DNA of 45,453 nucleotides from an uncultured Bacteroidales bacterium. Lineage in GTDB: Bacteria; Bacteroidota; Bacteroidia; Bacteroidales; FEN-979. The stretch is from the NCBI GenBank assembly GCA_903845055.1, contig CAIMWF010000099.1, positions 1 to 45,453 on the forward strand, read 5' to 3'. The position numbers and the translations under genes are program-made. Below the pieces are notes generated by a model, which was given only the letters and a program-made list of their open reading frames with translations, was not told the DNA's origin and ran no database searches. Positions within the stretch are counted from its first letter, which is position 1. Every line of letters begins with the position of its first letter. Positions 2,351 through 23,398 of this stretch are shown here, one piece after another.

Positions 2351-3901
2351 ATGATACGCGTTGGGATACAGAAATTAACACCTGATGATTTCTACAGGAT
2401 TCTTTTCCTTGATGAAAAAATTGAACTTGACCCGCTGGCAGTTGAAAAAGTAGAGGCTAATTATTTATTTCTGAAAGAATTTGCCAAGGGTAAAGTCATT
2501 TATGGGATCAATACCGGCCTCGGGCCGATGGCTCAATATAAAATAAACGGAAACAGCGAACTTCAGCTCCAGTATAACCTCATCCGCAGCCATTGTTCCG
2601 GTTGCGGCACCCCGCTTCCCGAAATTTATGCCAAAGCCACCATGCTGGCACGGCTGAACACCTTCATGCAGGCAAAATCGGGCATCCATGTCGAGGTAAT
2701 CCATCTGCTCAAGGAACTGATCAATCGAAATATCAACCCTCACATCCCCGAACATGGCGGGGTTGGAGCCAGCGGCGACCTCGTTCAGCTGGCCCACCTC
2801 GCACTCAACCTCATCGGGGAGGGCGAAATCTGGTATGAAGGCAAACTCCAGGATACTGCGGCAGTTTTCGAAAAAGAGAAGCTCACGCCTGTCACCATGC
2901 ATATCCGGGAAGGGCTATCGCTGATCAACGGCACCTCCGCCATGACCGGTATCGGCATGATCAACCTTGTGCATGCCAAGAACCTGCTCGACTGGGCCGT
3001 CCTCGCCTCTTCCATGATCAATGAAATCGTGGAATCATACGACGACCATTTTTCCGACGGGCTGAACCGCGTTAAGACCCATTACGGTCAGAACCAGGTG
3101 GCCCGCATGATGCGCTCCATCCTGAGCGACAGCCAGCTGATCCGCCGGCGGGCCGAGCACCTCTACAACGGCCAGTCGGGAGAGGTGGAGGTGTTCACAC
3201 ATAAAGTCCAGGAATATTATTCCCTGCGTTGCGTTCCCCAGGTACTCGGCCCGATCCTCGATACCATCCTCTATGCCGAAAAAGTACTGATCAACGAGGT
3301 GAATTCCACGAACGACAACCCCATCATCGACAGCGATGCAAAAAATGTATTCCATGGCGGTAATTTTCATGGCGATTATGTGGCCCTGGAGATGGATAAA
3401 CTTAAGATTGCGGTAACCAAACTTTCAATGCTGGCCGAGCGTCAGTTGAATTACCTGATGAACGACAAACTGAACCAGAAGCTGCCTCCCTTTGTAAACC
3501 TGGGAAAACTCGGCTATAACCTTGGCATGCAAGGGCTCCAGTTCACGGCTGTTTCAACGGTTGCCGAAAACCAGACCCTCTGTTTCCCCATGTCGATCCA
3601 CAGCATCACCAATAACAACGACAACCAGGATATCGTCAGCATGGGGACCAACGCCGCCATGATGACCAAACGGGTGATCGACCATTCCTATATCGTATTG
3701 TCGATCCACATGATCGCCATCCTGCAGGCCATCGAATTCCTGAAAACGGAAACGAAGATGTCGGCATATTCCCGGAAAAAATTCCAGGACCTGCGAAAAA
3801 TCGTACCTGCATTTGCAGATGACACGACGAAATACAAGGAAATTCAGCAGATTGCCAATTACATTCTTGAAAATAAACCGAAATTTCCACTCACGGATTG
3901 A
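2351..3901 (+). CDS. MIO-dependent ammonia-lyase (HAL/TAL/PAL family)
   Basis: A 516-residue lyase that removes ammonia from an aromatic amino acid or histidine. The self-processing MIO triad Ala140-Ser141-Gly142 lies in GGVGASGDL, and catalytic Tyr51 in YGINTGLG; length is normal for the family. The selectivity loop reads Ser80-His81 (NLIRSHCSG), a pair I associate with histidine lyases. However, no other histidine-degradation gene is nearby and the gene leads a ketosynthase/ACP cluster, as the lyases of aryl-polyene and flexirubin clusters do, where they supply cinnamate or 4-coumarate as starter. I infer a tyrosine or phenylalanine lyase role from context, but the substrate is not settled by sequence. 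The gene is followed by a 110-base gap full of short repeats. Confidence 0.85.
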   Translation: MIRVGIQKLTPDDFYRILFLDEKIELDPLAVEKVEANYLFLKEFAKGKVIYGINTGLGPMAQYKINGNSELQLQYNLIRSHCSGCGTPLPEIYAKATMLARLNTFMQAKSGIHVEVIHLLKELINRNINPHIPEHGGVGASGDLVQLAHLALNLIGEGEIWYEGKLQDTAAVFEKEKLTPVTMHIREGLSLINGTSAMTGIGMINLVHAKNLLDWAVLASSMINEIVESYDDHFSDGLNRVKTHYGQNQVARMMRSILSDSQLIRRRAEHLYNGQSGEVEVFTHKVQEYYSLRCVPQVLGPILDTILYAEKVLINEVNSTNDNPIIDSDAKNVFHGGNFHGDYVALEMDKLKIAVTKLSMLAERQLNYLMNDKLNQKLPPFVNLGKLGYNLGMQGLQFTAVSTVAENQTLCFPMSIHSITNNNDNQDIVSMGTNAAMMTKRVIDHSYIVLSIHMIAILQAIEFLKTETKMSAYSRKKFQDLRKIVPAFADDTTKYKEIQQIANYILENKPKFPLTD

Positions 3902-3904
3902 CTT

Positions 3905-4003
3905 ATTTACGATTTTTGAACCCGGAATTCCGATTTCAGTAAATGGAACGGAATCCGGTCGTCCATACCTGAAATCGTATATCGTATATCGTAAATCGTA
4001 AAT
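3905..4003. repeat. Inverted ATCGTAA/TTACGAT repeats between lyase and reductase
   Basis: At the left end of the gap is TTTACGATTTTTG (from 3906) and at the right end (3971-4003) a tandem array ATCGTAT-ATCGTAT-ATCGTAA-ATCGTAA in the opposite sense, so the array could fold back on the left copy. Same unit as at 2171, 4738 and 25401. Confidence 0.75.
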
Positions 4004-4011
4004 AAAAAAAT

Positions 4012-4740
4012 ATGAATTTTGCACTGGTTACAGGCGGATCCAGGGGAATTGGCAGGGCGGTCAGCCTGAACCTGGCTGAAATGGGTTTTTACATCCTGGT
4101 CAATTACCGCAACAACCTCGCCGAGGCTGAGACCACCCTCGCCCTGATCAGGGAAAAAGGCTCCGACGGGGAACTCATGCCGTTCGATGTCGCCTCGCAG
4201 GAGGAGGTTGAACGGGCCCTGGGCAAGTGGCAGACAGCCCACGAAGGGGAATATATCAGTGTCGTGGTGAACAATGCGGGAATCCGCAAAGATGCCCTGC
4301 TGATGTGGATGAAAAACGAGGAATGGAACGAGGTGATCAACACCAACCTGCACAGTTTCCTCTACGTCACGCGGTTCCTGCTCAAGGACATGCTTCTTAA
4401 AAGATGGGGACGGATCATCAACGTTGTTTCACTTTCGGGATTGAAGGGTTTGCCGGGCCAGGCCAACTATTCGGCCGCGAAAGCCGGGGTGATCGGAGCA
4501 ACGAAGGCGCTCGCGCAGGAGGTGGCAAAGAAAAACGTAACCGTGAATGCCGTCGCACCGGGGTTCATTAAGACCGACATGACCAGCGACCTTGATGAAG
4601 GACAATTAAAGACCATGATCCCGGCCGGTCGATTTGGAAACCCGGAGGAAGTTGCCGCCGTGGTTTCATTTTTAGCTTCGCGTCAGGCTTCCTATGTGAC
4701 AGGCGCCGTGATCAACGTGAACGGGGGGCTTTATACCTGA
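4012..4740 (+). CDS. FabG-like 3-oxoacyl-ACP reductase (SDR family)
   Basis: A 242-residue short-chain dehydrogenase that would reduce the beta-keto group after each condensation, using NAD(P)H. The nucleotide-binding motif TGGSRGIG is at 7-14, NNAG at 87-90, and the catalytic set Ser140, Tyr153, Lys157 (in NYSAAKAG) is intact. Length and C-terminal VNGG match FabG. In aryl-polyene clusters the equivalent is ApeQ. It lies between two repeat-filled gaps, downstream of the lyase and upstream of the first ketosynthase. A housekeeping FabG role cannot be excluded, but the setting argues for cluster-specific use. Confidence 0.9.
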   Translation: MNFALVTGGSRGIGRAVSLNLAEMGFYILVNYRNNLAEAETTLALIREKGSDGELMPFDVASQEEVERALGKWQTAHEGEYISVVVNNAGIRKDALLMWMKNEEWNEVINTNLHSFLYVTRFLLKDMLLKRWGRIINVVSLSGLKGLPGQANYSAAKAGVIGATKALAQEVAKKNVTVNAVAPGFIKTDMTSDLDEGQLKTMIPAGRFGNPEEVAAVVSFLASRQASYVTGAVINVNGGLYT

Positions 4741-4792
4741 TTTACGATTTACGATTTACGATTTACGATTTTGGATTTACGATTTTGGATTT
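4738..4792. repeat. Tandem TTTACGA array
   Basis: GATTTAC units repeat about six times right after the reductase stop codon, the last two spaced by TTTTG. It fills half of the 114-base gap before the next ketosynthase. The gap has no clear promoter. Confidence 0.85.
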
Positions 4793-4854
4793 AAATATTT
4801 TCCATTTAAGATTTTTTTACAATTTTGCCATTTTACCATTTCACCATCTAGCAT

Positions 4855-6072
4855 ATGCACAGGGTTGTCATAACAGGCATGGGTATTTATTCGGTGATCG
4901 GAAAGAATCTTGATGAAGTAAGGGATTCTCTTTTCCATGGCCGTTCGGGGATTATTTTTGACCAGGCCAGGAAGGACCTCGGGTTCCGCTCCGGGCTTAC
5001 CGGGATGGTCGAACGACCGGTTCTAAAGGGGGTCCTCGACCGCAGGATGCGCGTCGGGTTGCCGGTGCAGGGCGAGTACGCCTACATTTCGACACTTGAA
5101 GCACTCCGTCATGCAGGTATCGATCAGGCCTTTCTCGATACGCACGAGGTCGGCATTCTTTTCGGGAACGACAGTTCAGCCGTTCCGGTTGTAGAATCTG
5201 TCGATATCCTCCGGCAGAAAAAAGATACCATGATGATCGGCTCGGGGTATATTTTCCAGTCGATGAATTCCACCGTTTCCATGAACCTCTCCGTCATCTT
5301 CAGGCTGAAGGGGGTTAACTTCACCATCAGCGGCGCTTGTGCAAGCGGGTCGCACGCCATCGGGATCGGTTACCTGCTGATCAAGCAGGGGCTGCAGGAC
5401 ATGATCATCTGCGGGGGGGCCCAGGAGATCAACCCCGAATCGACTGCCAGCTTTGACGCACTGAATGCATTTTCCACAAGGGAATCAGACCCTGCCGGCG
5501 CCTCGCGCCCGTTCGACCGCGACCGCGACGGGCTGGTCCCAAGCGGGGGTGCCGCAACCGTGATCATCGAAAGTTATGAATCGGCCCTCAAACGCGGGGC
5601 AACAATTCTCGGCGAGGTGATCGGTTACGGATTCTCATCAAACGGCGATCATATCTCCATGCCGAATGTGGAGGGCCCGAGTATCGCCATGCAGAAAGCA
5701 ATCGGTGACGCAGGCATCCGGGCATCCGAAATTGACTATATCAACGCACACGCAACCTCAACACCTGCAGGCGACAGCAATGAGGCACGGTCGATCAGCC
5801 TGGTTTTCGGGGACTCCAAACCCCTGATCAGCAGCACCAAATCGATGACCGGCCACGAAATGTGGATGGGCGGCGCCAGCGAAGTGGTCTATTCCACCCT
5901 GATGATGAACAACGGGTTTGTAGCCCCGAACATCAACCTGGTCAACCCCGATGCGGACTCGGAAAAGCTGAATATCGCCACCCGGACAACCCCTTTCCAG
6001 ATAGGCACATTCCTGTCAAATTCCTTTGGATTCGGGGGGACAAACTCTTCGCTGGTCATCCGGAAAGCATAA
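4855..6072 (+). CDS. Beta-ketoacyl-ACP synthase (KAS I/II type), first of four
   Basis: A 405-residue condensing enzyme. The nucleophile Cys162 lies in ISGACASGSH, the two histidines are His299 (INAHATSTP) and His334 (MTGHEMWMG), and Lys329 and the terminal NSFGFGGTNSS are present, so it should be active. It resembles FabB/FabF and the ApeR-type ketosynthases of aryl-polyene clusters. It is more distant from the paired ketosynthases at 14302 and 18916 than those are from each other, and it has no degenerate partner next to it; it may act early (starter elongation) or alone. An ACP gene follows after 51 bases. Confidence 0.9.
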   Translation: MHRVVITGMGIYSVIGKNLDEVRDSLFHGRSGIIFDQARKDLGFRSGLTGMVERPVLKGVLDRRMRVGLPVQGEYAYISTLEALRHAGIDQAFLDTHEVGILFGNDSSAVPVVESVDILRQKKDTMMIGSGYIFQSMNSTVSMNLSVIFRLKGVNFTISGACASGSHAIGIGYLLIKQGLQDMIICGGAQEINPESTASFDALNAFSTRESDPAGASRPFDRDRDGLVPSGGAATVIIESYESALKRGATILGEVIGYGFSSNGDHISMPNVEGPSIAMQKAIGDAGIRASEIDYINAHATSTPAGDSNEARSISLVFGDSKPLISSTKSMTGHEMWMGGASEVVYSTLMMNNGFVAPNINLVNPDADSEKLNIATRTTPFQIGTFLSNSFGFGGTNSSLVIRKA

Positions 6073-6075
6073 TCC

Positions 6076-6105: not shown

Positions 6106-6123
6106 CATCGTTAACGAACCACG

Positions 6124-6375
6124 ATGATGCAAAACGATGAAATTATCAGGAAGGTAAACCAGCTCCTGATCGACGAGATAGAAATAGATGAAAACCAGAT
6201 CAGTCCTGCGGCCGATCTGAAAAAGGATCTTGGGATCGACAGCCTTGACTTTGTCGACCTGTTCGTCATCATTGAAAATAATTTCGGCTTTAAGATGAAG
6301 GCAGAGGAGATGGCCGAAGTAAAATCACTGGACGATTTTTATCAGTACATTATTGCACGCGTCAACAGGAACTGA
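6124..6375 (+). CDS. Acyl carrier protein 1
   Basis: An 83-residue carrier protein. The phosphopantetheine attachment Ser40 lies in LGIDSLDFVD, with the usual acidic helix II. It would carry the growing chain between ketosynthase, reductase and dehydratase. The start could equally be the second ATG at 6127. It sits between the stand-alone ketosynthase and the radical SAM gene and may have its own promoter. The second ACP of the cluster (14041) differs clearly in sequence, suggesting separate roles such as starter loading and elongation; this last point is inference. Confidence 0.92.
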   Translation: MMQNDEIIRKVNQLLIDEIEIDENQISPAADLKKDLGIDSLDFVDLFVIIENNFGFKMKAEEMAEVKSLDDFYQYIIARVNRN

Positions 6376-6434: not shown

Positions 6435-7793
6435 ATGCACAGGAAGAAACTGTTATTTATATCCGCCAACAGATTCACAAACCCTTACCCGGTCTACCCT
6501 CTTGGAATTGCATACCTGGTTGCCTATCTGAAGGAACACCTGCCCGGATACGAGATAAGGATTTTTGATTTCAACATCCAAACCCCCGAATCCTTATCCA
6601 CCTGCCTGACAGATTGGCAGCCCGATTATATCGCGCTCTCCCTCAGGAATATCGACGATGTAAGTTCATTAAGCCGTGAAAGTTTCATCGGGGGTTACAA
6701 AGAGATCGCCGGATTGATCAGGCGGAGTGTGACGGTGCCCCTCATTATCGGCGGATCAGCTTTCTCCATCTACCCACGTGAGCTTTTTTCTTTCATACAG
6801 CCCGAATATGGAATCAAAGGGGAGGGTGAAGAAAGTTTGTTTCAGCTGCTTAGCAGCCTCGATGCCGGCTCCCCCGATCTTAACATTGAAGGACTTGTCT
6901 ACCGGCAGGGAAATAAAATCGTTGTTAATGACAGGAAGCTGTTTATCAAAACACCCGACCTAACCTTTGATGATGACCTGCTTGATTTTTACTGGGACAA
7001 GGCAGGGATGGTCAACATACAGACCAAGCGGGGCTGTCCCTACAACTGCATTTACTGCACCTACCCGCTCATTGAGGGGCACAACGTGCGCACCCTCGAC
7101 CCGGGCAAGATCATCCATACCCTCAAAACACTGATTGAGCGCCACAAAATAGACAACGTTTTCTTCACCGATTCGGTATTCAATATCAGCAATCCCTTCA
7201 ACGACGAGCTCGCGAGGCAGATGATCGCCGCGAAACTCCCGCTCCGGTGGGGAGCCTATTTTTCGCCCCATAACCTTACCCTCGGGCAGCTTAAACTTTA
7301 TGCGGAGGCCGGTCTGACGCACATCGAATTCGGGACGGAATCGCTTTCGGACAGAACCCTGAAAAATTATGGAAAACATTTCACTGTCGAAGATGTAGTC
7401 CGTATTTCAAACCATTGCAACGAGACGGGTATCTATTTCTGTCATTTCATGATCATCGGCGGGCATGGGGAAACCGAAGAGACCATTAATGAAAGTTTTG
7501 AAAATTCCAGGAGAATCGAAAACACGGTCTTCTTTCCCTATGTCGGCATGCGGATTTACCCGGGTACTGTTCTTCATAAAATTGCAATCAGTGAAGGAGT
7601 TGTTGACGTGATGGACGACCTGCTCGAACCGGTTTACTATATGGCACCCGGGATTCGCTACGACACGCTGAAGGAGCGCGCGGAAAAAACCGGCCGGCGG
7701 TGGGTCTTTCCTGACGAGGATTTCGGCCTTATAGCAAAACGCATGAGGAAAAAAAACAAAAAAGGATCCTTATGGCATTACCTGAAGAAATAA
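6435..7793 (+). CDS. B12-binding-type radical SAM enzyme
   Basis: A 452-residue enzyme with an N-terminal Rossmann-like cobalamin-binding-type region (about 5-145; PLGIAYLVAYL, GGSAFSIYP) and a radical SAM domain whose cluster cysteines are Cys201, Cys205 and Cys208 (RGCPYNCIYC). The classical DxHxxG lower-ligand motif is not seen, as in many members of this class. Relatives methylate unactivated carbons or rearrange and cyclise lipids and tetrapyrroles. In this cluster a C-methylation of the aromatic ring or of the chain is a reasonable inference, because aryl-polyene and flexirubin head groups are often methylated, but the sequence does not prove it. It overlaps the dehydratase gene by 22 bases, implying coupled translation. 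Confidence 0.85.
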   Translation: MHRKKLLFISANRFTNPYPVYPLGIAYLVAYLKEHLPGYEIRIFDFNIQTPESLSTCLTDWQPDYIALSLRNIDDVSSLSRESFIGGYKEIAGLIRRSVTVPLIIGGSAFSIYPRELFSFIQPEYGIKGEGEESLFQLLSSLDAGSPDLNIEGLVYRQGNKIVVNDRKLFIKTPDLTFDDDLLDFYWDKAGMVNIQTKRGCPYNCIYCTYPLIEGHNVRTLDPGKIIHTLKTLIERHKIDNVFFTDSVFNISNPFNDELARQMIAAKLPLRWGAYFSPHNLTLGQLKLYAEAGLTHIEFGTESLSDRTLKNYGKHFTVEDVVRISNHCNETGIYFCHFMIIGGHGETEETINESFENSRRIENTVFFPYVGMRIYPGTVLHKIAISEGVVDVMDDLLEPVYYMAPGIRYDTLKERAEKTGRRWVFPDEDFGLIAKRMRKKNKKGSLWHYLKK

Positions 7794-8194
7794 ATATTCC
7801 GCAGAAACCGCCCATGGTGATGGTCGGCCGGTTGATTGAAGCCGGTGCAGGCCAAACGACCACATCCTTCACGGTCAGTGAGGATAATATTTTTTGTGAA
7901 AACGGCGAATTCCGCGAAGCCGGGCTGATTGAAAACATGGCGCAGACCGCAGCCGCAGGCATCTGTTCAAAGGCAGCGGACCAAACCGGGGAGCCGCCGG
8001 TCGGTTTTATCGGCGGCATCAGGAACCTGAAAATCATTGCATTGCCAAAGGCCGGACAGGAGATTGTCACCCGGATTACCATGATGCACCAGGTGTTCGA
8101 CAGTTCTATTGTCAGGGGTGAAATTTTCATTGGAAACCAGCTCCTCGCCTCATGCGAGTTAAAAATATTCCTGGTGAAACAGGTAAATGATTAA
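7772..8194 (+). CDS. Hotdog-fold 3-hydroxyacyl-ACP dehydratase (ApeP-like)
   Basis: A 140-residue hotdog protein. The central-helix motif GLIENMAQTAAA carries Glu54, matching the acid of FabZ-type dehydratases. The FabZ loop GHFPGxP with its catalytic histidine is replaced by IFCENGEFREA (40-50). As far as I recall, the ApeP proteins of aryl-polyene clusters have the same kind of FC-D/E change, which supports the assignment. It would dehydrate 3-hydroxyacyl-ACP to build conjugated double bonds. The start overlaps the radical SAM gene by 22 bases. No second dehydratase is visible in the cluster. Confidence 0.75.
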   Translation: MALPEEINIPQKPPMVMVGRLIEAGAGQTTTSFTVSEDNIFCENGEFREAGLIENMAQTAAAGICSKAADQTGEPPVGFIGGIRNLKIIALPKAGQEIVTRITMMHQVFDSSIVRGEIFIGNQLLASCELKIFLVKQVND

Positions 8195-8289: not shown

Positions 8290-8685
8290 ATGGAAGCAAA
8301 TCAGAATCCGGTTTATAAAGACAAGGCATACGGTCAGTTCAGGGAACTTTCGTATTCATACCAGGATGGCGGCGCATTTGAAAAGACAGTGGGTTATCAC
8401 GGGGAAGCCGACCGGCTGGTCCTTCAGCAGGCCTGGGACCTATTCAGGGAGCGGATTGAGAGCGCCCGTCAGCTGGTGATCTCGGGCAAGGTAAGCCCGG
8501 TGGTCTATTACATGGAAAAAAACCTGCTTGACCCGCTGAACCTCTCGATGATGGCCGGGGTTGCGCTCTGGCGCGTGAAATTGCACCTGAAACCCGGTTT
8601 TTTTAAACGTCTGAACGAAAAAACGCTGCAGAAATATGCAGATGCCTTTAACATTACCACCGAACAACTCAAAAAAGTCGATTAA
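8290..8685 (+). CDS. Conserved-looking protein of unknown function
   Basis: A 131-residue soluble protein without signal peptide or membrane segment. I do not recognise its family. It is predicted mostly helical, rich in charged residues, with a central hydrophobic patch (DPLNLSMMAGVALWRVKLHL, about 81-100) and a C-terminal stretch KYADAFNITTEQLKKVD. The gene is 14 bases upstream of the BtrH-like gene and downstream of the dehydratase, so it is almost certainly part of the operon. It might be a partner of the BtrH-like or radical SAM enzyme; that is only inference from position. Confidence 0.75.
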   Translation: MEANQNPVYKDKAYGQFRELSYSYQDGGAFEKTVGYHGEADRLVLQQAWDLFRERIESARQLVISGKVSPVVYYMEKNLLDPLNLSMMAGVALWRVKLHLKPGFFKRLNEKTLQKYADAFNITTEQLKKVD

Positions 8686-8699: not shown

Positions 8700-9725
8700 A
8701 TGGAAACCACGAAAACAATCATTAATTATACGCACCGCCAGGCCGGACACTGCGAAAGCGGGGCAACTTCGAACCTTTTTAAATTCAACGGGCTGGAAAT
8801 ATCGGAGCCCATGGCCTTTGGCATTGGAAACGGATTGTATTTCAGTTACATCCCCTTTCTCAAGATACAGTTTGCCCCCATGATCTCCTTCAGAAACCTG
8901 CCAAACACAGTCTTCAGGCGGTCGACCTCCTACATGGGGATCGAGGCGACGGTGGTGAAAAAGATCAAGGACCCGAAAGAGGCCATGGAGATGCTTGACC
9001 GAAACCTCGCACAGGGAATCCCCACAGGCTGCCAGGTCGGCGTCTTCCAGCTGACCTTCTTCCCGCCCGAATACCGCATGCATTACAACATGCACAACCT
9101 TGTGGTATTCGGTAAAGAGGGCAACATGTACCACGTAAGCGATACGGTGTTGGAATTTCCGCAGCTGATCACTTACGACGACCTTGTACGGGTGAGGTAT
9201 GCCAAAGGGGCCTTCGCACCGCAGGGTAAGATGTACTGGATCAACCATGCCATCGAAAATCCCGTTGACCTGAAACCGGCCATCATTCTTGGAATTAAAA
9301 AAACCGTTTACGAAATGATCGGGATTCCTTTCCCGCTCATCGGGGTGAAGGGGTTGCGCTGGATGGCCCGCGATATACGTAAATGGCCTAAGAAACACGG
9401 CAACGATACCGCTTCCTTCTATCTTGGACAGATCCTTCGCATGGCCGAGGATTTTGGTACCGGTGGCGCAGGATTCCGTTATATTTACGGGGCTTTCCTT
9501 AAGGAGGCCGGCGAATTGTTCGGGGGTCACCAGGAGTTGCTTGAGGCGTCGGACATGATGGGGAAAACCGCCAACAAATGGCGTGAGTTCACCTATATGG
9601 GGGCAAGGAACTGTAAAAACCGCGCCAAACCCGAAGAGGATTACGGCACACTGTCGGAAAAACTGCTCGAAATTGCCAATGACGAGGAGAAGGTCTACCA
9701 GAAACTTAAAAAAATAAAATTCTGA
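8700..9725 (+). CDS. BtrH-like acyltransferase with papain-like triad
   Basis: A 341-residue protein. The N-terminal half matches the BtrH type: His17-Cys18 in GHCESGATSNL, then His132 (MHNLVVFG) and Asp148 (HVSDT) in the order and spacing of a papain-like Cys-His-Asp triad. BtrH in butirosin biosynthesis moves an acyl group from a carrier protein to an amine. By analogy this protein could unload an ACP-bound chain onto an acceptor, but the acceptor is unknown. The C-terminal half (about 175-341) is helical and resembles the usual second domain of this family. There is no signal peptide, so it should act in the cytoplasm. The stop codon overlaps the next start by one base, tying it to the ABC transporter. 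Confidence 0.75.
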   Translation: METTKTIINYTHRQAGHCESGATSNLFKFNGLEISEPMAFGIGNGLYFSYIPFLKIQFAPMISFRNLPNTVFRRSTSYMGIEATVVKKIKDPKEAMEMLDRNLAQGIPTGCQVGVFQLTFFPPEYRMHYNMHNLVVFGKEGNMYHVSDTVLEFPQLITYDDLVRVRYAKGAFAPQGKMYWINHAIENPVDLKPAIILGIKKTVYEMIGIPFPLIGVKGLRWMARDIRKWPKKHGNDTASFYLGQILRMAEDFGTGGAGFRYIYGAFLKEAGELFGGHQELLEASDMMGKTANKWREFTYMGARNCKNRAKPEEDYGTLSEKLLEIANDEEKVYQKLKKIKF

Positions 9726-12197: not shown

Positions 12198-12207
12198 CTG
12201 CTGTGGC

Positions 12208-15717: not shown

Positions 15718-16773
15718 ATGTTATATATCAACGGCATCGGCATCATTTCCCCGCAGAAGACGATGGTTTCAAGGGAGTTCCTCCCTGAGGTCATGGAATA
15801 TACTGCTGAGTACCTCAGGTGCATCGAACCGGTTTACAGGGACTATATCGAGCCGATCCAGTCGCGCCGCATGAGCAGGCTGATAAAAATGGGTATCGCA
15901 GCGGCCAGGATGAGCATGGCTGATGCAGGATGCACCATGCCTGACGCCATCATCACCGGTACCGGTCTGGGCAGTGTTGAGGACACCGAAAAAATCCTGG
16001 GGGAGATCACCCGGGAGGAGAAATTCCTGAACCCTACCCCTTTCATCCAGTCAACCTACAATACCATCAGTTCACAGGTTGCGATCCAGCTCAAATGCCA
16101 TAATTACAACTCCACCTATGTACACCGCACTTTCTCCTTCGAAACCGGGCTGACCGACGCGTTCCTGCATATGGAGGAAAAGCCCGATGCAGACATCCTG
16201 GCAGGTGCGATCGACGAGATGACCATGAACCACCTGGTGATTACCCGCAGGATCGGGCAGTGGAAAATGTCGGCAGTCAACAACCTCAAACTGCTGGTGG
16301 AAAAAACCCCGGGCGCACTGGCGGGCGAAGGGGCTGCATTTTTCGTCCTTGGCGGGAAAAGAAACGTTTCAACCTATGCTGAACTTTCGGATGTTGCAAC
16401 CTGCATCAACATCCGGAATTCATTCAATCCTGAAGTGTTCATCCATGAATTTTTAAGCCGTCATAACCTGGGCTTGCAGGATATCGACCTGCTCCTGCTC
16501 GGGATCAACGGCGACAGTGACCAGGATCCCGTCTACACGGACTTTGCGGGAAAATTCTTTCCGGGGAAATCCTGGGCATGGTACAAGCATCTGTGCGGCG
16601 AATATCACACTGCCACGGGTTTCGGATTATACATTGCCTCCGGAATCCTGAAAAACCAGGTTTATCCTGAAATTCTGCGCCTCAACAAGGTCAGCCCGGC
16701 AGGCCTGAAAAACATCCTGGTTTACAACCATTACAGGAATATCAACCATTCTTTTATGCTGGTCAGGGGATAA
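15718..16773 (+). CDS. Chain-length-factor-like ketosynthase homologue, first copy
   Basis: A 351-residue ketosynthase-fold protein without the nucleophile: the elbow reads HRTFSFETGL (136-145). Other ketosynthase landmarks remain, such as ITGTGLGSVEDTEK (79-92), AGEGAAFFVLGG and GEYHTATGFG, the last aligning with the second catalytic His region. Aryl-polyene systems use such an inactive partner (ApeC) in a heterodimer with an active ketosynthase (ApeO). The paralogue at 20127 has the same pattern. Its stop codon is one base from the end of the convergent sensor kinase gene. Confidence 0.85.
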   Translation: MLYINGIGIISPQKTMVSREFLPEVMEYTAEYLRCIEPVYRDYIEPIQSRRMSRLIKMGIAAARMSMADAGCTMPDAIITGTGLGSVEDTEKILGEITREEKFLNPTPFIQSTYNTISSQVAIQLKCHNYNSTYVHRTFSFETGLTDAFLHMEEKPDADILAGAIDEMTMNHLVITRRIGQWKMSAVNNLKLLVEKTPGALAGEGAAFFVLGGKRNVSTYAELSDVATCINIRNSFNPEVFIHEFLSRHNLGLQDIDLLLLGINGDSDQDPVYTDFAGKFFPGKSWAWYKHLCGEYHTATGFGLYIASGILKNQVYPEILRLNKVSPAGLKNILVYNHYRNINHSFMLVRG

Positions 16774-16774: not shown

Positions 16775-18796
16775 TCAAACAATCGGGGCGTCTCCCGCGG
16801 AGGATTGTCTCCATGGCAGACCGGGTGTATCCTGCGACGGGATCGTAAAGCTGAAGGTACTTCCTTTTCCCTCCTCGCTGTGGACCCAGATCCGGCCGCC
16901 ATTTCTTTCAATGAAATCCTTGCAGATGATCAGCCCGAGGCCTGAACTCGGTTCACCTTCGGTTCCCCTCCGGGAGGTCTGGTTGTCAATCCTGAAAAGC
17001 TTATTGATCATTTCCATGCTCATCCCGATGCCGGAATCCTTGATGGAAACCTCGATAAAACTCCCACCGGAAGGCTTTGCCGAGATATTGATCGTCCCTC
17101 CTGCATGGGTAAATTTGACAGCATTGTACGACAGGTTCCGGATGATGCCGTGTAACATGTTGTCATCGGCGAAAACCGTGATATTTTCAGGAATGTCATC
17201 ACTGATGATGATGCCCTTTTTCCTGGCGGTTTCAAGGACCGATGGCAGGCTTTCAAGAATTTTCTGCTTCAACGGGATCAGGCAGGGGTCAAACCCGGTT
17301 ACCCCCCGCTCGATGCGTGACCACGTCAGGAGGTTTTCAAGCAGGTTGTAGAGGTTGATGGCGGACTTACGCAGAATCACCGCAATCTTCTGGATCTCAT
17401 CAAAACGCATGGTGCCGAGGTCTTCATCCATGAGCTGGGTAAACCCCAGGAAAGAATTGAACGGACTGCGGAGGTCGTGGGCAATAATTGAGAAAAATTT
17501 GTCTTTTTCTGCAACAAGCCTTACCAGTTCTTCGTTTTTCTGCCTGATCTCGGCCTCTGCCTTGATGCGTTCGGAAATATCGAAGACCAGGGATATGAAA
17601 TAGTCGACCGACCGGTCGTTCTTGCGAAGGCATTGTATTTCCAGGTGGGTGCTCACAATGCCGCCATCTTTACGCACAAAACGTTTCTCAAGATTATAGC
17701 CGTCAATTTCATCGTAAAGCACCCTTTTGTATTGCACCAGCTCTTTTTCAAGGTCGGCGGGATGGGTCAGTTCAAACCATGTTTTCCCTTTCAGCTCACC
17801 CTTGCTGTACCCGAGCATGCCTGCCAGCGTTGTGTTCACCTCGAGCCAGCTGCCCAGGGGAGATGAAATGGCACGCCCGGTGAGCGGTAGTTCAAAATAA
17901 CTCCGGAACCTTGCTTCACTGTTGCGGAGCTCTTCTTTGGCAAGTTTGTTTTCAGTGATATCCCGCCAGCTCGACCGGCTGGCAACGATGTTTCCTTTCT
18001 TGTCGCGTACGGCCGTGACATTCAGGCTCACATCCAGTAAGCTCCCGTCCTTGCGGCAAATCTGGAACTCCATGTTGTTCATCTGCCCGGAAATTTTAAA
18101 CTCTTCAAAGGCGTGCAGCGCAAGTTCACGGCAGTCCGGATGATACATTTCAATGACCGGCCGTCCGATAAGTTCCGATTTGCCGTAACCAGTCTTTACT
18201 GCCGTGGTTTGATTGCATTGGATGATGGTTCCCGTAGCCGGGTCTACAGAAAGGTACATGTCGGGGGCATGTTCATACAAGTCATGGTACCTTGCCTCGG
18301 AATCAAGGATTTCCTGCTCCGCCTGCCTTCGCTCGGAAATATCGCGTATGAATGCACAGTTAAATTCCCTGGCACCATAAACCATGAAATTGGCAATAAT
18401 CTCAACAGGCACCAGGTTCCCGGCCAGGGTTTTATATGTACTTTCAAAGCGCATCGATCCGGATCTTCTCAGTGATTCCCAGTGCAGGTTCCAATATGAC
18501 ATCTGGTAACCGGCCGCCACTTCATCAATGGAAAGACCGACCAGTTTATCTGTTTCATAACCCAGCAGATTGCACGAGGCTTTGTTGCAGTATTCAATCC
18601 TGCCATCGGCATTAAGCCATAAAACCGCGTCGGCCATGTGTTCAATTGAAAACTGCATCAGGCGCAGGGTCTGTTCCGCCTCCCTGAATCCTGCAATTTC
18701 ATTTTCGTAAAATGCTGTTGCTGCTGCCAGTTCTTTCTGCAGATTCTTTAATTCAGATAAAAGCTGATCCTTTGTCTTGTCCTGATCCTTCATCAT
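16775..18796 (-). CDS. PAS-domain sensor histidine kinase
   Basis: A soluble, cytoplasmic kinase of 674 residues from the start at 18796 (MMKDQDK); a longer frame to 18922 would run into the neighbour's start and lacks support. A short coiled coil is followed by three PAS domains with PAC segments (about 30-400), the phosphoacceptor His near residue 440 (IIAHDLRSPF), and an ATPase domain with N box (NLSYNAVKFTH), DSGIGMS and GLGLIICKDF. No receiver or output domain is fused, and no response regulator lies next to it. The gene is antisense between two duplicated ketosynthase pairs. It may sense redox or a ligand and control the cluster, but this is inference. Confidence 0.9.
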   Translation of the reverse strand: MMKDQDKTKDQLLSELKNLQKELAAATAFYENEIAGFREAEQTLRLMQFSIEHMADAVLWLNADGRIEYCNKASCNLLGYETDKLVGLSIDEVAAGYQMSYWNLHWESLRRSGSMRFESTYKTLAGNLVPVEIIANFMVYGAREFNCAFIRDISERRQAEQEILDSEARYHDLYEHAPDMYLSVDPATGTIIQCNQTTAVKTGYGKSELIGRPVIEMYHPDCRELALHAFEEFKISGQMNNMEFQICRKDGSLLDVSLNVTAVRDKKGNIVASRSSWRDITENKLAKEELRNSEARFRSYFELPLTGRAISSPLGSWLEVNTTLAGMLGYSKGELKGKTWFELTHPADLEKELVQYKRVLYDEIDGYNLEKRFVRKDGGIVSTHLEIQCLRKNDRSVDYFISLVFDISERIKAEAEIRQKNEELVRLVAEKDKFFSIIAHDLRSPFNSFLGFTQLMDEDLGTMRFDEIQKIAVILRKSAINLYNLLENLLTWSRIERGVTGFDPCLIPLKQKILESLPSVLETARKKGIIISDDIPENITVFADDNMLHGIIRNLSYNAVKFTHAGGTINISAKPSGGSFIEVSIKDSGIGMSMEMINKLFRIDNQTSRRGTEGEPSSGLGLIICKDFIERNGGRIWVHSEEGKGSTFSFTIPSQDTPGLPWRQSSAGDAPIV

Positions 18797-18804
18797 GGCG
18801 ACGG

Positions 18805-18835
18805 TAAATATACATGAAAAAACATTAAAATCAAG
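18805..18835 (-). promoter_or_regulatory. Candidate promoter of the sensor kinase
   Basis: On the minus strand CTTG at 18835-18832, 19 bases, then TATATTTA at 18812-18805. The start codon follows within ten bases, so the transcript would be almost leaderless. Confidence 0.35.
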
Positions 18836-18885
18836 GACAGTATTAAAAACTTGCAACAGGGCTCGATTATGACGGGATATTCTCT

Positions 18886-18893
18886 TAATTTTG
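18886..18893 (+). promoter_or_regulatory. Promoter -7 element for the fourth ketosynthase
   Basis: TAATTTTG, an exact TAnnTTTG match, 22 bases before the ATG at 18916, in the 119-base divergent region shared with the kinase. The -33 half is not clear. Confidence 0.45.
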
Positions 18894-18915
18894 CGCAAAA
18901 CTGTTACAGTAAAAA

Positions 18916-20130
18916 ATGACAAAACGGGTTTGCATAACGGGGACCGGAATTATCTGTGCCATTGGAAACAATGTCCCCGGTACGTTGGATTCCCTGATGT
19001 ATTCTAGGACGGGCATCGGTGAGATTTCGCTCCTGAAAACCTTACTACGGGGGATTATCCCGATGGCGGAAGTCGCAATGACGACCGGAGCGCTGATGGA
19101 GGCTGCCGGTGTTGCCGGGCAAACCTGTTACACACGTACGGCCCTCCTTGGCATGATCGCTGCTGCCGAATCGGTGAGGTCGGCCGGGATTGAAGATATC
19201 CGGGAATACCGCACCGGGCTGATATCGGCTACTACCGTGGGGGGGATGGACCGTACTGAAAATTTTTTCTCCGAATACCTGGCGGATCCGAAAAGGGGCC
19301 GGCTGAGAGACGTTGTCAACCACGACTGCGGCGACAGCACCGAGCGGATTGCACTGCACCTGGGAATCGCGGATTTTGTAACCACCCTCAGCACCGCGTG
19401 TTCTTCGTCGGTTAACGCCATAATGCTCGCATCGAACCTCATCAAATCGGGGCAGCTCGACCGCGTGGTTGCCGGTGGAAATGATTCGGTCACGAAATTC
19501 ACCCTGAACGGTTTTAATACGCTGATGATCCTCGATAAAAACGGATGCCGGCCATTTGATGAAAACCGTGCAGGCCTGACGCTTGGTGAAGGTGCTGCAT
19601 TCCTGGTGCTCGAATCGGAGGAGGCGGCAATTAAAAGAGGTGCCCGCATCCTTGCCATCGTATCGGGATATGGCAATGCAAATGATGCCTACCATCAAAC
19701 CGCCTCTTCACCGGAAGGCACAGGCGCCTACCTTGCCATGTCGAAGGCGCTTTCCATGAGCGGGCTCGATGCCGCCGGCATTGATTACATCAACGTTCAC
19801 GGAACCGGCACGCAAAACAACGATCTCTCCGAAGGGGTTGCCCTTGAACGGCTTTTTGGCAACCGGGTTCCGCCTTTCAGTTCAACGAAAGGATTTACGG
19901 GCCACACCCTCGGTGCCGCCGGGGCCGTTGAGGCTGTGATCTCCATCCTTTCCCTGCAGCACGGGATGATCTTTCCGAACCTTAATTTTTCAGTTCCGAT
20001 GAAGGAGCTTAACATACAGCCTGTCAGCAAGCTGCAACAAGGCCTTACCCTTAATCACATATTATCCAATTCCTTCGGATTCGGGGGGAACAATTCCTCG
20101 GTTATCCTTTCAAAACCCGGCATCCAATGA
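18916..20130 (+). CDS. Beta-ketoacyl-ACP synthase, fourth of four (paired)
   Basis: A 404-residue condensing enzyme with Cys162 (LSTACSSSVN), His295 (NVHGTGTQNN), Lys325 and His330 (FTGHTLGAAG). It is a close paralogue of the protein at 14302. It overlaps the chain-length-factor-like gene at 20127 by four bases, so translation is coupled, as expected for heterodimer partners. It appears to have its own promoter, which would allow this pair to be expressed separately from the upstream operon. Confidence 0.93.
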   Translation: MTKRVCITGTGIICAIGNNVPGTLDSLMYSRTGIGEISLLKTLLRGIIPMAEVAMTTGALMEAAGVAGQTCYTRTALLGMIAAAESVRSAGIEDIREYRTGLISATTVGGMDRTENFFSEYLADPKRGRLRDVVNHDCGDSTERIALHLGIADFVTTLSTACSSSVNAIMLASNLIKSGQLDRVVAGGNDSVTKFTLNGFNTLMILDKNGCRPFDENRAGLTLGEGAAFLVLESEEAAIKRGARILAIVSGYGNANDAYHQTASSPEGTGAYLAMSKALSMSGLDAAGIDYINVHGTGTQNNDLSEGVALERLFGNRVPPFSSTKGFTGHTLGAAGAVEAVISILSLQHGMIFPNLNFSVPMKELNIQPVSKLQQGLTLNHILSNSFGFGGNNSSVILSKPGIQ

Positions 20131-21218
20131 CCCATGTCTACATCAACGGTACGGGCATCATCTCTCCTCAGGAGACCTTCGACACCGCCCTTTTTCTGGA
20201 AAACCCGGTTATTCCCGTATCAAACCGTCTAAGGTGCGTGGAACCGGTTTACCGGGAATTCATCCCTGCCGAAATGATCAGGCGGATGGGCCGGGTCATC
20301 AAAATGGGAGTCGCCGCATCAAAATGCTGTTTGAAAGATGCAGGGACCGGTGATGGCTCCGGGGTTGCCCTAGAAATCATACCCGAAATGATTATCACTG
20401 GCACCGGGCTCGGATGCGTGGAGGATACCGAAAAGTTTCTCACCTCTATGATCGTCAACAGGGAAGAATTTCTTACCCCGACCTCCTTCATCCAGAGCAC
20501 CCACAATACGGTGGCCGGACAAATCGCCCTGCTGCTGAAATGCCACGGGTACAATTTCACCTATGTACACCGGGGGATCTCCTTTGAAAGCGCCCTTATC
20601 GACGCCATGACCCAGTTGCAGACAGGTGCCGTTTCCAATGTACTTGCCGGCGCGACAGATGAACTGACAAACCATTCCTTTGCAATCACCTCACGCATGG
20701 GCTACTGGAAACAAAAACTTGTCGGCACCACCGGCCTCCTGAACGACCCCCGGCGCGGTTCCATAGCCGGTGAAGGAGCATCCTTCTTTTTTCTTGAAAA
20801 TCAACAGGTGCCGAACACCTATGCCGAACTGCGCGGCATTGCCACCATGCTGCGCCCGGAATCGCTGCAGGAAATCCGTAACAGGCTGCATTCATTTCTC
20901 GGCACCTTCGGGCTTACCGCCGGCGACATCAGCGTGGTGCTCCTGGGATTGAACGGCGATCCCCGTCACGACCGAATTTACCGCGACCTTGCACGATCTG
21001 AGTTCGACGGTGTTCCCCAGGCTTTTTACAAGCATCTCTGCGGGGAATATCACACCGCATCTTCGTTTGCGATGTGGCTTGGATCGAAGATCATTAAAAG
21101 ACAGCATGTTCCTCCCGTCACCATGTTGAACCACGCGCCTGGCAGCATCGAACATGTGCTCATTTACAACCATTTCCGGGAGAATAACCACGCTTTCATC
21201 CTCCTAAGCCGTCCGTAA
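20127..21218 (+). CDS. Chain-length-factor-like ketosynthase homologue, second copy
   Basis: A 363-residue ketosynthase-fold protein. The elbow reads HRGISFESAL (148-157), so there is no nucleophilic Cys, while ITGTGLGCVEDTEK (90-103), IAGEGASFFFLEN and KHLCGEYHTASSF are kept. It aligns along its full length with the first copy at 15718. The four-base overlap with the ketosynthase gene upstream supports a stable pair. The deacetylase gene starts directly after its stop codon. Confidence 0.87.
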   Translation: MTHVYINGTGIISPQETFDTALFLENPVIPVSNRLRCVEPVYREFIPAEMIRRMGRVIKMGVAASKCCLKDAGTGDGSGVALEIIPEMIITGTGLGCVEDTEKFLTSMIVNREEFLTPTSFIQSTHNTVAGQIALLLKCHGYNFTYVHRGISFESALIDAMTQLQTGAVSNVLAGATDELTNHSFAITSRMGYWKQKLVGTTGLLNDPRRGSIAGEGASFFFLENQQVPNTYAELRGIATMLRPESLQEIRNRLHSFLGTFGLTAGDISVVLLGLNGDPRHDRIYRDLARSEFDGVPQAFYKHLCGEYHTASSFAMWLGSKIIKRQHVPPVTMLNHAPGSIEHVLIYNHFRENNHAFILLSRP

Positions 21219-22019
21219 ATGGTTTCTTTCCGACAGGTAACCGTGATATTTTTCGCCCTTATTCTGGTTTGCCTGCTCGTGAATTTTTTCCTGTGGAGCA
21301 AACCTCATTCACTGGCAGGCATCTCCCTGCCTCTCGCAGCATTGATCCTTTTCATTTTCTATTCAGTTATCACGCTGGTATTAGCATTCTTCCCGGCTTC
21401 CGGTTTTTATCTTCCCGTATTAACCCGCGGGAATACCCTTGAAAAAACGATTGCACTCACCTTCGACGATGGCCCGGTTCCGGGGAATACCGAACTGGTG
21501 CTCGATGTTTTGAAACGGCACGGGGTAAGCGGCACCTTTTTCTGCAAGGGCAGGAACGTGGCGGCGCACCCGTCGCTTGCGAAACGGATTGCGGGCGAAG
21601 GTCATCTTCTCGGGAATCACACATTCAGCCACTCCCCTTTCATTGACCTGTTCCCGACCCGCCGTATTGCGCTTGAACTCGAACGGACAGACAAACTCAT
21701 TTCAGGCATTACCGGCAGGACTCCCCTCTTCTTCCGCCCACCTTACGGGGTGATCAACCCGATGGTGGCAGGGGCCGTGAAAACAGTCAACAGACAAACC
21801 GTTTGCTGGTCAGTAAGGTCATTTGATACCATGAACCGGACTCCTGAGAAAACCATGAGGCGCATCATCAGCCGCCTGAAGCCGGGAGTTGTTATCCTGC
21901 TGCATGATCATACGCCTTTTACCCGGGATCACCTTGATGAACTGATCACGGCCATCTTCCACGCAGGTTATTCAATTGCAGCACTGGACAAACTGTTAAA
22001 TACCGAAGCCTATGCATAA
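21219..22019 (+). CDS. Membrane-anchored polysaccharide deacetylase (NodB/CE4)
   Basis: A 266-residue protein with two N-terminal membrane helices (about 7-26 and 37-58) and a periplasmic NodB domain. The metal and catalytic motifs are present: TFDDGP (81-86), His134 and His138 in NHTFSHSP, RPPYG (173-177) and LLHDH (227-231). CE4 enzymes remove acetyl groups from N-acetylated sugars. Its place directly after the ketosynthase pair and overlapping the LolA-like gene by eight bases suggests that the cluster product, or a sugar on it, is deacetylated outside the inner membrane. A cell-wall role is the alternative. Confidence 0.88.
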   Translation: MVSFRQVTVIFFALILVCLLVNFFLWSKPHSLAGISLPLAALILFIFYSVITLVLAFFPASGFYLPVLTRGNTLEKTIALTFDDGPVPGNTELVLDVLKRHGVSGTFFCKGRNVAAHPSLAKRIAGEGHLLGNHTFSHSPFIDLFPTRRIALELERTDKLISGITGRTPLFFRPPYGVINPMVAGAVKTVNRQTVCWSVRSFDTMNRTPEKTMRRIISRLKPGVVILLHDHTPFTRDHLDELITAIFHAGYSIAALDKLLNTEAYA

Positions 22020-22719
22020 CTGCTCCGTCATGCCGGGTTCGCGGATCATCCCGGTCTTTTTCGCCGGATCAAGCCGGCCGTCTCTTGTTTTTATTTTGAT
22101 CGCCTCGTTGCTGATGGTGATTCCCAAAGGGTCGAGGTCGCAAGACCAGGTTACGGATCGTGCCGTCATCGAAAGCGTGAAATCGGGGATCAACCTTGCG
22201 GCGCAACGCACACAGACCATTTCGAGCGATTTTTCACAGGTCAAGGAGCTCAGCATGATCAGGGAGAAGATCATCTCAAAAGGGAAATTCTATTTTAAAA
22301 AGGATCGGATGCTCCGCTGGGAATATGTTCAGCCCTATGCCTACCTGATCATCATCCGGGGCGACCAAATCACGGTGAAGGACGATAACAAGGTAAACAC
22401 GTTCAACATCCAGTCCAACAGGATTTTCAGGGAGATCAACCGGATCATCCTCGGGAGCATCCGCGGAACCCTGCTGTCGGATGAGAAAAATTTCAGCGCT
22501 GAATATTCTTCGAATGCCGCTAGCTGGATCGTGAAACTGAAGACGCTGTCGCCAGGACTGAAGAATGCCGTGTCGGAGATCCTGATTTCTTTCGACCGCA
22601 GGGATTATGCCGTAATAAAAGTTGAGATCATGGAACCCGGAGGCGATTATACCCGGATCACGTTTACCGACCGAAAAATAAACCAGCCAGTTGATGATGC
22701 AAAATTCCTTGTTCCTTAA
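22012..22719 (+). CDS. LolA-like outer-membrane carrier protein
   Basis: A 235-residue exported protein of the LolA type. A hydrophobic segment (about 25-38) acts as signal peptide with likely cleavage near GSRSQ; the start may be the Met at codon 7. The body has typical LolA features: SSDFSQVKEL, GKFYFKKDRMLRWEYVQPY, and a late YTRITFTDRKINQPVDDAKF. LolA carries lipoproteins through the periplasm; the cluster-specific copies in aryl-polyene loci are thought to carry the pigment or a lipoprotein partner. It overlaps genes on both sides. Confidence 0.85.
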   Translation: MHNCSVMPGSRIIPVFFAGSSRPSLVFILIASLLMVIPKGSRSQDQVTDRAVIESVKSGINLAAQRTQTISSDFSQVKELSMIREKIISKGKFYFKKDRMLRWEYVQPYAYLIIIRGDQITVKDDNKVNTFNIQSNRIFREINRIILGSIRGTLLSDEKNFSAEYSSNAASWIVKLKTLSPGLKNAVSEILISFDRRDYAVIKVEIMEPGGDYTRITFTDRKINQPVDDAKFLVP

Positions 22720-23398
22720 GCTGTTGCTGCTGCCGGTTTTTGCCGGTTGTGTCTCCATCAGGCCATCTCACCTGGAGCAGGAAATGACAGTTGCGCCTGA
22801 TCAGCAGTGGCTGCAGCCGGGGATCACCATGACCAACAGCCTGTTCAGGGCCACGCTGGACATAAAAGGTCACCACCTCACCGGTCTGCTGATGATCAAA
22901 CGGATGGATACCGTTGCGGATTCCACACGCGCCGGGGCGTCGATGGGTTCCCGGCAACCAGCCGGTAAGGGACGCCAGGATGTCGCCACGAGGATTGTTT
23001 TTGCCAGTGAGATCGGCATGACCTATTTTGACCTGGAACTGAAACCCGGGGGTGATCAAGTAATTTCCTGTTTCGGCCCGCTGAACAAAAAAGCATTGCT
23101 GAACATACTCGAAAGCGATTTTACCCTTCTCACGGGAGTCTCGCCATTAAGGATCACGAAAACCTGCCGGCAAACCACGACCAGGCGCCGGATTTATGGT
23201 GGCAAGGCAGGATCCCTCAAATCGTGGTACACCCTTTCGGAGGAGGGTGACACCCTGTTTTCAACGGCTGCCCGTTCCAACATGGTCAACCCCGTTTTTA
23301 TCAAATATAACGGTTCCCTCCGGGAGGGACCCTCGAAAATAAATATGGACAACCCGGTAATCGGTCTAAATATGTCGCTGAAATTGCTTAAACGGTGA
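22694..23398 (+). CDS. Cluster lipoprotein (DUF3261-like)
   Basis: A 234-residue lipoprotein. The signal MMQNSLFLKLLLLPVFAGC has a clear lipobox (FAGC). The start at ATG 22694 lies within the 3' end of the LolA-like gene (26-base overlap); a TTG three bases earlier is less likely. The body is mainly beta, with no catalytic motif that I can see. Known aryl-polyene clusters carry a DUF3261 lipoprotein next to LolA, and this protein fits by size, order and signal; the family assignment is inferred from these, not from a strong motif. It is the last gene of the cluster. Confidence 0.7.
   Translation: MMQNSLFLKLLLLPVFAGCVSIRPSHLEQEMTVAPDQQWLQPGITMTNSLFRATLDIKGHHLTGLLMIKRMDTVADSTRAGASMGSRQPAGKGRQDVATRIVFASEIGMTYFDLELKPGGDQVISCFGPLNKKALLNILESDFTLLTGVSPLRITKTCRQTTTRRRIYGGKAGSLKSWYTLSEEGDTLFSTAARSNMVNPVFIKYNGSLREGPSKINMDNPVIGLNMSLKLLKR

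Follow-up and report, generated by a model that had tools for sequence, protein, structure and literature searches.

The systems closest to the locus analysed here, a run of genes at positions 2351-23398 (+ strand) of a DNA stretch from an uncultured Bacteroidales bacterium (FEN-979; GCA_903845055.1, contig CAIMWF010000099.1, positions 1-45,453), are the flexirubin clusters of F. johnsoniae and C. pinensis (PMC3992019); in the excerpts of that paper used here, the flx set of C. pinensis includes a deacetylase, LolA, a glycosyltransferase and an exporter. The whole stretch of 45,453 nt is called the window in what follows. The arcuflavin dar cluster of Azoarcus has in common with it the BtrH-like protein (a peptidase in its gene table), the ABC ATPase and permease, the acyl carrier protein (ACP) and a ketosynthase module, and differs by the darA-darB pair listed alongside and by a chorismate-derived hydroxybenzoate starter (PMC3949708, in excerpt). 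The aryl polyene (APE) cluster of E. coli shares the type II polyene core, an acyltransferase, LolA/LolB-like proteins and RND transport parts; it differs by the S-adenosylmethionine (SAM)-dependent methyltransferase ApeB, and the part of its gene table used here holds no radical SAM, BtrH-like or ABC gene (PMC8253772). In the ladderane/PUHC clusters of Kuenenia and Desulfotalea a B12 radical SAM enzyme is likewise encoded, in a setting that resembles type II fatty acid synthesis and includes many FabF paralogues, phytoene-desaturase-like genes and a phenylacetyl-CoA-ligase-like gene, whereas no aromatic lyase or Dar module appears in the extracts at hand (PMC2649909). This last likeness was assessed here by membership of TIGR04072 alone, a family which those extracts associate with ladderanes, stating no proven reaction for it.

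By comparison with canonical flexirubin clusters, the window holds, judged by gene content and order, the core half of a flexirubin-type cluster (Table 1). We surveyed 296 genomes of the phylum, a subset of Bacteroidota; 22 other genomes in this sample had a DarH above its cut-off, and from 10 of them we retrieved the neighbourhood of DarH, up to 40 kb. Five regions were complete (G057, G107, G174, G182, and G226, Flavobacteriaceae-like) and five were partial or rearranged (G017, G099, G253, G269, and G277); G, L, and C numbers denote genomes, loci, and contigs. DarB was identified in them by NCBIfam and DarA by its position, the gene preceding DarB being the one we took to be DarA. The canonical order was FlxA, a WG-repeat protein, FlxB, ketosynthase KS1, ACP1, LpxL, DarA, DarB, two dehydratases, DarG, DarH, the ABC ATPase, the ABC permease, a thioesterase, KS2, a chain-length factor (CLF), ACP2, KS4, its partner KSx2, a deacetylase, and LolA, with one additional gene ahead of DarA in G174. 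Farther along there were a glycosyltransferase, MMPL, desaturase-like and C45 proteins, and the ligase was in view in three of the five. The run at 2351-23398 was collinear with all five complete clusters from FlxA to LolB, and its genome, like theirs, encoded ligase, glycosyltransferase, and MMPL. It lacked the WG-repeat protein, LpxL, DarA, and DarB, and it had one dehydratase rather than two and an extra KS3-KSx1 pair with no equivalent in the canonical regions fetched. The LpxL-DarA-DarB position was occupied by a gene for a B12 radical SAM enzyme. DarH (the BtrH-like protein), DarG, and the ABC genes have the same arrangement in canonical clusters and are, on this comparison, the standard Dar module and no replacement. 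A preliminary description of the window had read radical SAM, BtrH, and ABC genes as a core that replaces ligase, MMPL exporter, and glycosyltransferase; the canonical gene order corrects this view, and the radical SAM enzyme is the real addition.

Relatives of the locus were obtained by scanning the radical SAM protein against a collection of species genomes, which gave 27 loci. The first 26 belong to 24 metagenome-assembled genomes (MAGs), the only kind of genome among the relatives, and the 27th (L109) is from a Desulfobacteraceae record, with a radical SAM protein 36% identical. Twenty-five loci sit in 23 MAGs titled Bacteroidales, Bacteroidetes, or Draconibacterium. The remaining record (L098) is titled Alphaproteobacteria; its radical SAM protein was near-identical to that of the Bacteroidales locus L097, and the label is probably a binning or naming error. 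FlxA was found in 20 of the 27 loci, six other Bacteroidota-type loci ended upstream at a contig edge, and the Desulfobacteraceae locus showed none. As far as the contigs reach, gene content and order recurred in all 24 other MAGs, so the arrangement is not due to chance, and the proposal of a distinct branch, made from the window alone, gains support. Isolate names indicate a sulfidic cave and several lakes, among them Pavin, Loclat, and Alinen; read from these names, the hosts would be an uncultured, probably anaerobic branch of Bacteroidota from stratified or anoxic habitats.

The absence of DarA (an aromatase) and DarB (a ketosynthase), which provide the dialkylresorcinol part of the orange flexirubins, was noticed at first in the window and proved to be genome-wide. 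The best match to the DarB model reached 65.5 bits in the window's genome and 87 bits in the 24 relatives, against a cut-off of 550, so that DarB was found in none of the 25 genomes; a search with one canonical DarA protein as query was also negative in all 25. Five of six canonical control genomes exceeded the DarB cut-off and the sixth gave 519 bits, and DarA was found in six of six, down to 44% identity. DarB was detected at E < 1e-60 in all 22 other genomes with DarH over its cut-off (21 of them over the DarB cut-off); the tally covered 25 genomes, and the two without a DarB match were G158, with DarH under the cut-off, and G230, with no DarH. Considering that the window's genome is 95% complete, a single miss could be an assembly gap, but all 25 could hardly be.

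The enzyme in the vacant position has PF02310 (B12-binding) and PF04055 domains, and the cysteines of its CxxxCxxC motif (C201, C205, and C208) were invariant in 33 aligned rows. TIGR04072 gave matches in 291 of the 296 genomes, mostly to generic B12 radical SAM proteins, and the cut-off was passed by the window's genome alone; all 14 control genomes stayed below it. In the 18 relative loci that span ACP1 to the dehydratase, the slot always held LpxL followed by the radical SAM gene, and the two formed a single open reading frame (ORF) in eight loci of seven MAGs (L099, L100, L101, L102, L103, L104, L105, and L107). At L090, FlxB, the radical SAM gene, and the dehydratase were retained while KS1/ACP1 and LpxL were relocated. 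The tree joined the window type to the Desulfobacteraceae enzyme (100/96); a TIGR04072-like enzyme from the second half of the pathway described below was linked through a less well supported fork (94/74), which also includes G209, and the group as a whole (100/99) was separate from the majority of the other B12 radical SAM proteins of Bacteroidota; this tree and that of DarH both carry long-branch warnings. The Desulfobacteraceae radical SAM gene overlaps a FabZ-like dehydratase gene and lies near genes for an ACP, a ketosynthase, and two further radical SAM enzymes; the pairing of radical SAM enzyme and dehydratase may thus predate its use in flexirubin-type clusters.

The pointers to its reaction disagree among position, structure, and family. 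The nearest solved structure, by sequence and by fold, was TsrM, a C-methyltransferase (the model had a mean pLDDT of 72.7, and below 50 in the cluster-binding loop). In G238, of the same order, the slot of the FlxA cluster (L155) holds the FlxJ methyltransferase (NF053543, 633 bits, cut-off 560). Relatives of FlxJ in the 25 radical SAM genomes did not exceed 36.4 bits, six of them giving matches of 27-36 bits. C-methylation of ring or chain is the single likeliest reaction, at under even odds. The loss of FlxJ was considered as proof of a methylating enzyme and rejected, FlxJ being absent in two canonical genomes and other methyltransferases being present in the genome.

With respect to DarH, residues C18, H132, and D148 were near-invariant (98% or more) in 60 rows. 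Its sequence found no match among solved structures up to E 1, and the relationship appeared at the level of fold only: the predicted model (pLDDT 81, TM about 0.6) matched CtaG (E 4e-10), AziU2/U3, and CcbD (E 5e-7), with 11-14% identity to CtaG and CcbD. The structure entries name the CtaG variants C11A, H128A, and D144N and the CcbD variant C19S, residues which we take to correspond to C18, H132, and D148 of DarH. CtaG and CcbD are carrier-protein acyl transferases. Because of the invariant Cys-His-Asp set and the CtaG/CcbD-like fold, transfer from a carrier protein by DarH is well founded as a prediction, and the BtrH-type hand-over put forward in the preliminary description is upheld. Known members of the BtrH/CtaG/CcbD type, with which DarH shares the BtrH_N domain and, by prediction, fold and Cys-His-Asp set, acylate amino groups. 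BtrH itself is described, in the portion of the source used, as an acyl carrier protein:aminoglycoside acyltransferase (PMC10318531). Among 18 relative loci running well past the first DarG, 15 reach DarH and the ABC genes; two DarG-DarH pairs were present in 12 of these 15 and one pair, as in the window, in L095, L100, and L103. In the tree, the two window-type paralogues grouped together (100/100) beside canonical DarH, a further DarH from the second half stood apart (100/95), and G017 fell outside the remaining canonical rows.

The window holds half of a larger set of genes, which in this genome is broken up over several contigs. Two further contigs, C149 and C33, share an exact end overlap of 141 bases, and together (L033, L034) they encode a ligase, an ACP, a second DarH (321 bits), a DarG-like protein, an ABC permease, a methyltransferase, a glycosyltransferase, and a desaturase-like protein, followed by a ketosynthase III (KSIII), a ketosynthase, a malonyl-transferase-like protein, a hydroxyacyl dehydrogenase, two hydratases, a thioesterase, a dehydratase, and four radical SAM genes, one of these assigned through a profile match on its G315 homologue. 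The FlxY-type ligase of C149, whose activity is predicted, had 60% identity to a ligase-type gene next to the canonical cluster of G057, and the glycosyltransferase (C149:16027-17271) was 44-49% identical to canonical ones. An MMPL exporter lies at C85:30861-34724. The searches found a ligase in each of 26 genomes and MMPL in each of 27. The second half was fetched in eight relatives. In G312, G315, and G316 it follows directly after LolB, and a single contig carries everything from FlxA to the ligase in 47-52 kb, MMPL and a C45 protein included. In G308 the second half is adjoined by just the KS4-LolB part of the first, FlxA to KSx1 being on another contig; the halves are about 20 kb apart on one contig in G301, far apart on one contig in G302, and on different contigs in G306 and G297. 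Thus ligase, MMPL, and glycosyltransferase, which had been reported as absent, are found elsewhere in the genome and inside the full cluster of relatives; the idea of a split cluster holding ligase, MMPL, and Dar genes elsewhere came true for ligase and MMPL and failed for DarA and DarB.

Several other observations concern the second half. In L131, L135, L137, and L142 (G315, G301, G316, and G312, respectively) a radical SAM enzyme and the hydroxyacyl dehydrogenase form one ORF of 858-867 aa, which is, by its domains, a second radical SAM fusion to a fatty-acid-type enzyme. A sulfotransferase-family gene (L141:8799-9881, PF13469) occurs in the second half of G312, and none was seen in the corresponding stretch of the window's genome. 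We did not assign a beta-branching (HMG) cassette to the KSIII, the two hydratases, and the ketosynthase, although the combination is reminiscent of one: the ketosynthase keeps its cysteine, and HMG-CoA synthase was a weak tenth match.

From gene content and order, family membership, the absence of DarA and DarB, residue conservation, and predicted folds, we infer a pathway in which each reaction, the acceptor, and the product are predictions. FlxA would convert tyrosine to 4-coumarate, which the FlxY-type ligase encoded elsewhere in the genome would activate. Its extension on the ACPs, giving an aryl polyene, would be the work of the four ketosynthases and their inactive partners together with FlxB and the dehydratase, and the radical SAM enzyme would modify this carrier-bound aryl polyene. 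DarH, as a papain-fold Cys-His-Asp transferase, would then take the acyl group off the ACP and pass it to an acceptor distinct from the dialkylresorcinol made by DarA and DarB, plausibly a lipid that the second half produces. LpxL, the glycosyltransferase, MMPL, and LolA2/LolB2, with a C45-type acyltransferase in relatives, would place the product in the outer membrane. We hold with slightly better than even confidence that the locus is such a flexirubin-type aryl-polyene lipid cluster lacking DarA-DarB, in which a radical SAM-modified aryl polyene is moved by DarH to a non-dialkylresorcinol acceptor. A broader reading can be offered tentatively and is in itself rather doubtful: the 47-52 kb cluster as the anaerobic counterpart of flexirubin, coupling a type II aryl-polyene line, with tailoring by a cobalamin radical SAM enzyme of the ladderane family, to a second lipid line, the acyl products of the two being joined by several DarG-DarH transferases into an undescribed class of outer-membrane lipid.

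Some results weigh against the preferred reading. In the window's genome the cluster is spread over three contig groups, C85 holds an LpxL copy interrupted by one in-frame TAG, and of the two DarG-DarH pairs found in most relatives one is lacking; this copy may therefore be partly degraded. The best NCBIfam subfamily of the second-half KSIII is StlD/DarB (102.6 bits, cut-off 450), and such a divergent enzyme could still make a resorcinol-like partner. As to methylation by the radical SAM enzyme, FlxJ is also absent from the canonical genomes G057 and G174, which have no such radical SAM enzyme, and the second half encodes a methyltransferase of its own. Moreover, the MMPL proteins of C85 (L153:12840-16721) and of G312 (L142:1302-5207) carry an acyltransferase domain and a C-terminal SAM-dependent methyltransferase domain, the latter not present in canonical G057. 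Finally, L087, L090, and L093 have other genes after the first DarG, and over the following 9 kb of L093 no DarH was seen.

The KSIII (C33:9618-10742) is at the centre of an alternative that we regard as unlikely, in which it would act with the hydratases and radical SAM enzymes to make a cyclohexanedione- or resorcinol-like partner, the product being an aryl-polyene ester of an alkylated ring, that is, a divergent flexirubin. Besides its subfamily match, StlD is among its top solved relatives, a DarB-model match of 45-87 bits occurs in 22 of 24 relatives (just 29-38 bits in G302 and G305), and DarG and DarH are retained. However, the protein is far under the DarB cut-off, DarA is absent, and its neighbours are hydratases and a hydroxyacyl dehydrogenase, none of which accompanied DarB in the canonical regions retrieved; its identification as DarB proper was rejected (65-87 bits versus 550). 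It also seems improbable to us that TIGR04072 enzymes act on the polyene chain and not on the ring, by cyclisation, reduction, or branching, as in ladderane-type chemistry, to give a strained or branched aryl lipid. The family is that of the ladderane-associated enzyme, the tree groups the window's protein with that of the Desulfobacteraceae locus, and the second half has a phytoene-desaturase-like gene, but the closest solved structure is a C-methyltransferase, the tree has its long-branch warnings, and the source on the family, as excerpted, gives it no proven reaction.

We give little credence to an ordinary aryl polyene without resorcinol, E. coli-like, in which DarG, DarH, and the ABC genes would be leftovers and the radical SAM enzyme would just replace the ring methylation of FlxJ. 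This would agree with G238, whose FlxA cluster has FlxJ in the slot and no DarG, DarH, or ABC gene at that locus (this genome has no DarH and a 499-bit DarB-model match on another contig), and with L093. It is opposed by the 15 of 18 loci that keep DarH and ABC, 12 of them with two DarG-DarH pairs, and by the conserved DarH triad. That the cluster works without ligase, MMPL exporter, and glycosyltransferase, as the window run with none of them had suggested, is extremely improbable, given that the genome encodes all three and that relatives carry them inside the full cluster.

The cluster is thus of a known kind, flexirubin-type, and clearly altered: with respect to the described flexirubin clusters it has the radical SAM enzyme in place of DarA-DarB, the extra ketosynthase pair, and a second half that encodes KSIII, hydratases, and additional enzymes of the radical SAM type. 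In the open-licence PMC literature (exclusive of subscription papers and preprints) no paper contained both "flexirubin" and "radical SAM", and "flexirubin" and "BtrH" occurred together only in the Azoarcus paper, from whose text "radical SAM" is absent (PMC3949708). An antiSMASH table lists "Flexirubin" for Bacteroidales groundwater bins (PMC5383146), and "ladderane" cluster calls are reported in non-anammox phyla of the Cariaco Basin (PMC9902471); the excerpts of neither describe the gene set of the window. DarH is uncoupled from dialkylresorcinol in this lineage, as it persists without DarA and DarB, and therefore its natural acceptor there must be something else. A ladderane-associated radical SAM family is placed in a pathway with a known light-absorbing type of substrate, aryl polyenes, and being beside an acyltransferase, and sometimes fused to it, its chemistry should be assayable. 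The occurrence of such clusters in MAGs with isolate names indicating stratified lakes and a sulfidic cave suggests that they are not confined to aerobic pigmented strains, so a "flexirubin" call in genome mining of bins like these need not mean classical flexirubin.

Table 1: Features of the half-cluster in the window and the match or criterion that identifies each.
Feature	Position	Strand	Basis
FlxA-type tyrosine ammonia-lyase	2351..3901	+	NF053541 823 bits, cut-off 700
FlxB-type ketoreductase	4012..4740	+	NF053542 394 bits, cut-off 340
Ketosynthase KS1, active	4855..6072	+	Pfam; Cys-His-His kept
Acyl carrier protein 1 (ACP1)	6124..6375	+	PF00550
Cobalamin-binding radical SAM enzyme, TIGR04072 (rSAM_ladder_B12)	6435..7793	+	411.7 bits, cut-off 360
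Hotdog-type dehydratase	7772..8194	+	Weak FabZ similarity (NCBIfam); no Pfam match
DarG-family protein	8290..8685	+	NF053536 111.9 bits, cut-off 70
DarH, predicted BtrH-like papain-fold acyltransferase (BtrH_N/DUF4872)	8700..9725	+	NF053550 395 bits, cut-off 300; PF14399
ABC transporter ATPase, Dar module	9725..10477	+	PF00005; position as in canonical clusters
ABC-2 permease, Dar module	10477..11781	+	PF12698; position as in canonical clusters
4HBT thioesterase	11784..12197	+	PF13279; 41-53% identical to canonical counterparts
Ketosynthase KS2, active	12199..13380 (first in-frame ATG 12208)	+	Pfam; active-site alignment
Short CLF-like partner, active-site residues absent	13382..14032	+	40-46% identical to same-position canonical gene
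Acyl carrier protein 2 (ACP2)	14041..14295	+	PF00550
Ketosynthase KS3, active	14302..15543	+	Pfam; active-site alignment
Ketosynthase partner KSx1, inactive	15718..16773	+	Cys and His residues missing
PAS histidine kinase	16775..18922	-	Antisense between KSx1 and KS4
Ketosynthase KS4, active	18916..20130	+	Pfam; active-site alignment
Ketosynthase partner KSx2, inactive	20127..21218	+	Cys and His residues missing
Polysaccharide deacetylase-like protein, FlxP-like position	21219..22019	+	PF01522 111 bits; 33-37% identical to canonical counterparts
LolA2, flexirubin-type carrier	22012..22719	+	NF053544 210.5 bits, cut-off 125
LolB2, flexirubin-type lipoprotein	22691..23398	+	NF053540 65.1 bits, cut-off 60

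The genes listed in the preliminary description were all recovered at their places on the + strand from ORFs and scans of 21 genes by Pfam, NCBIfam, or both, and the DarG-family gene and the antisense kinase were added to them. Six flexirubin/Dar NCBIfam models were exceeded (FlxA, FlxB, the DarG family, DarH, LolA2, and LolB2); the flexirubin-specific DarG equivalog NF053545 gave 109.8 bits, under its cut-off of 170, NCBIfam deacetylase models were under their cut-offs for the deacetylase-like protein, and the CLF-like protein had no match in Pfam or NCBIfam. An active-site alignment bore out the count of four active ketosynthases, with Cys-His-His, and three inactive partners lacking it. FlxA was 73-92% identical among the 20 relative loci that hold one, KS1 65-69% identical to its counterpart in the seven canonical regions showing one, and the dehydratase, whose ORF overlaps the radical SAM gene by 22 bases, 29-47% identical to dehydratases of the canonical regions. 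KSx1 and KS4 are separated by just 38-100 bases in G301, G312, G315, and G316, and for this reason the PAS histidine kinase looks like a local insertion; the G308 cluster is broken at the same KSx1/KS4 point.

Close behind the cluster, at 24256-25371 (-), there is a gene for HydE, an [FeFe] hydrogenase maturase (TIGR03956, 346 bits, cut-off 254.6), which fits an anaerobic host. Farther on, at 27410-45288, the ORFs read as an exopolysaccharide-type run, with sugar transferases, a chain-length/kinase protein, a flippase, and ligase-like and asparagine synthase-like proteins.

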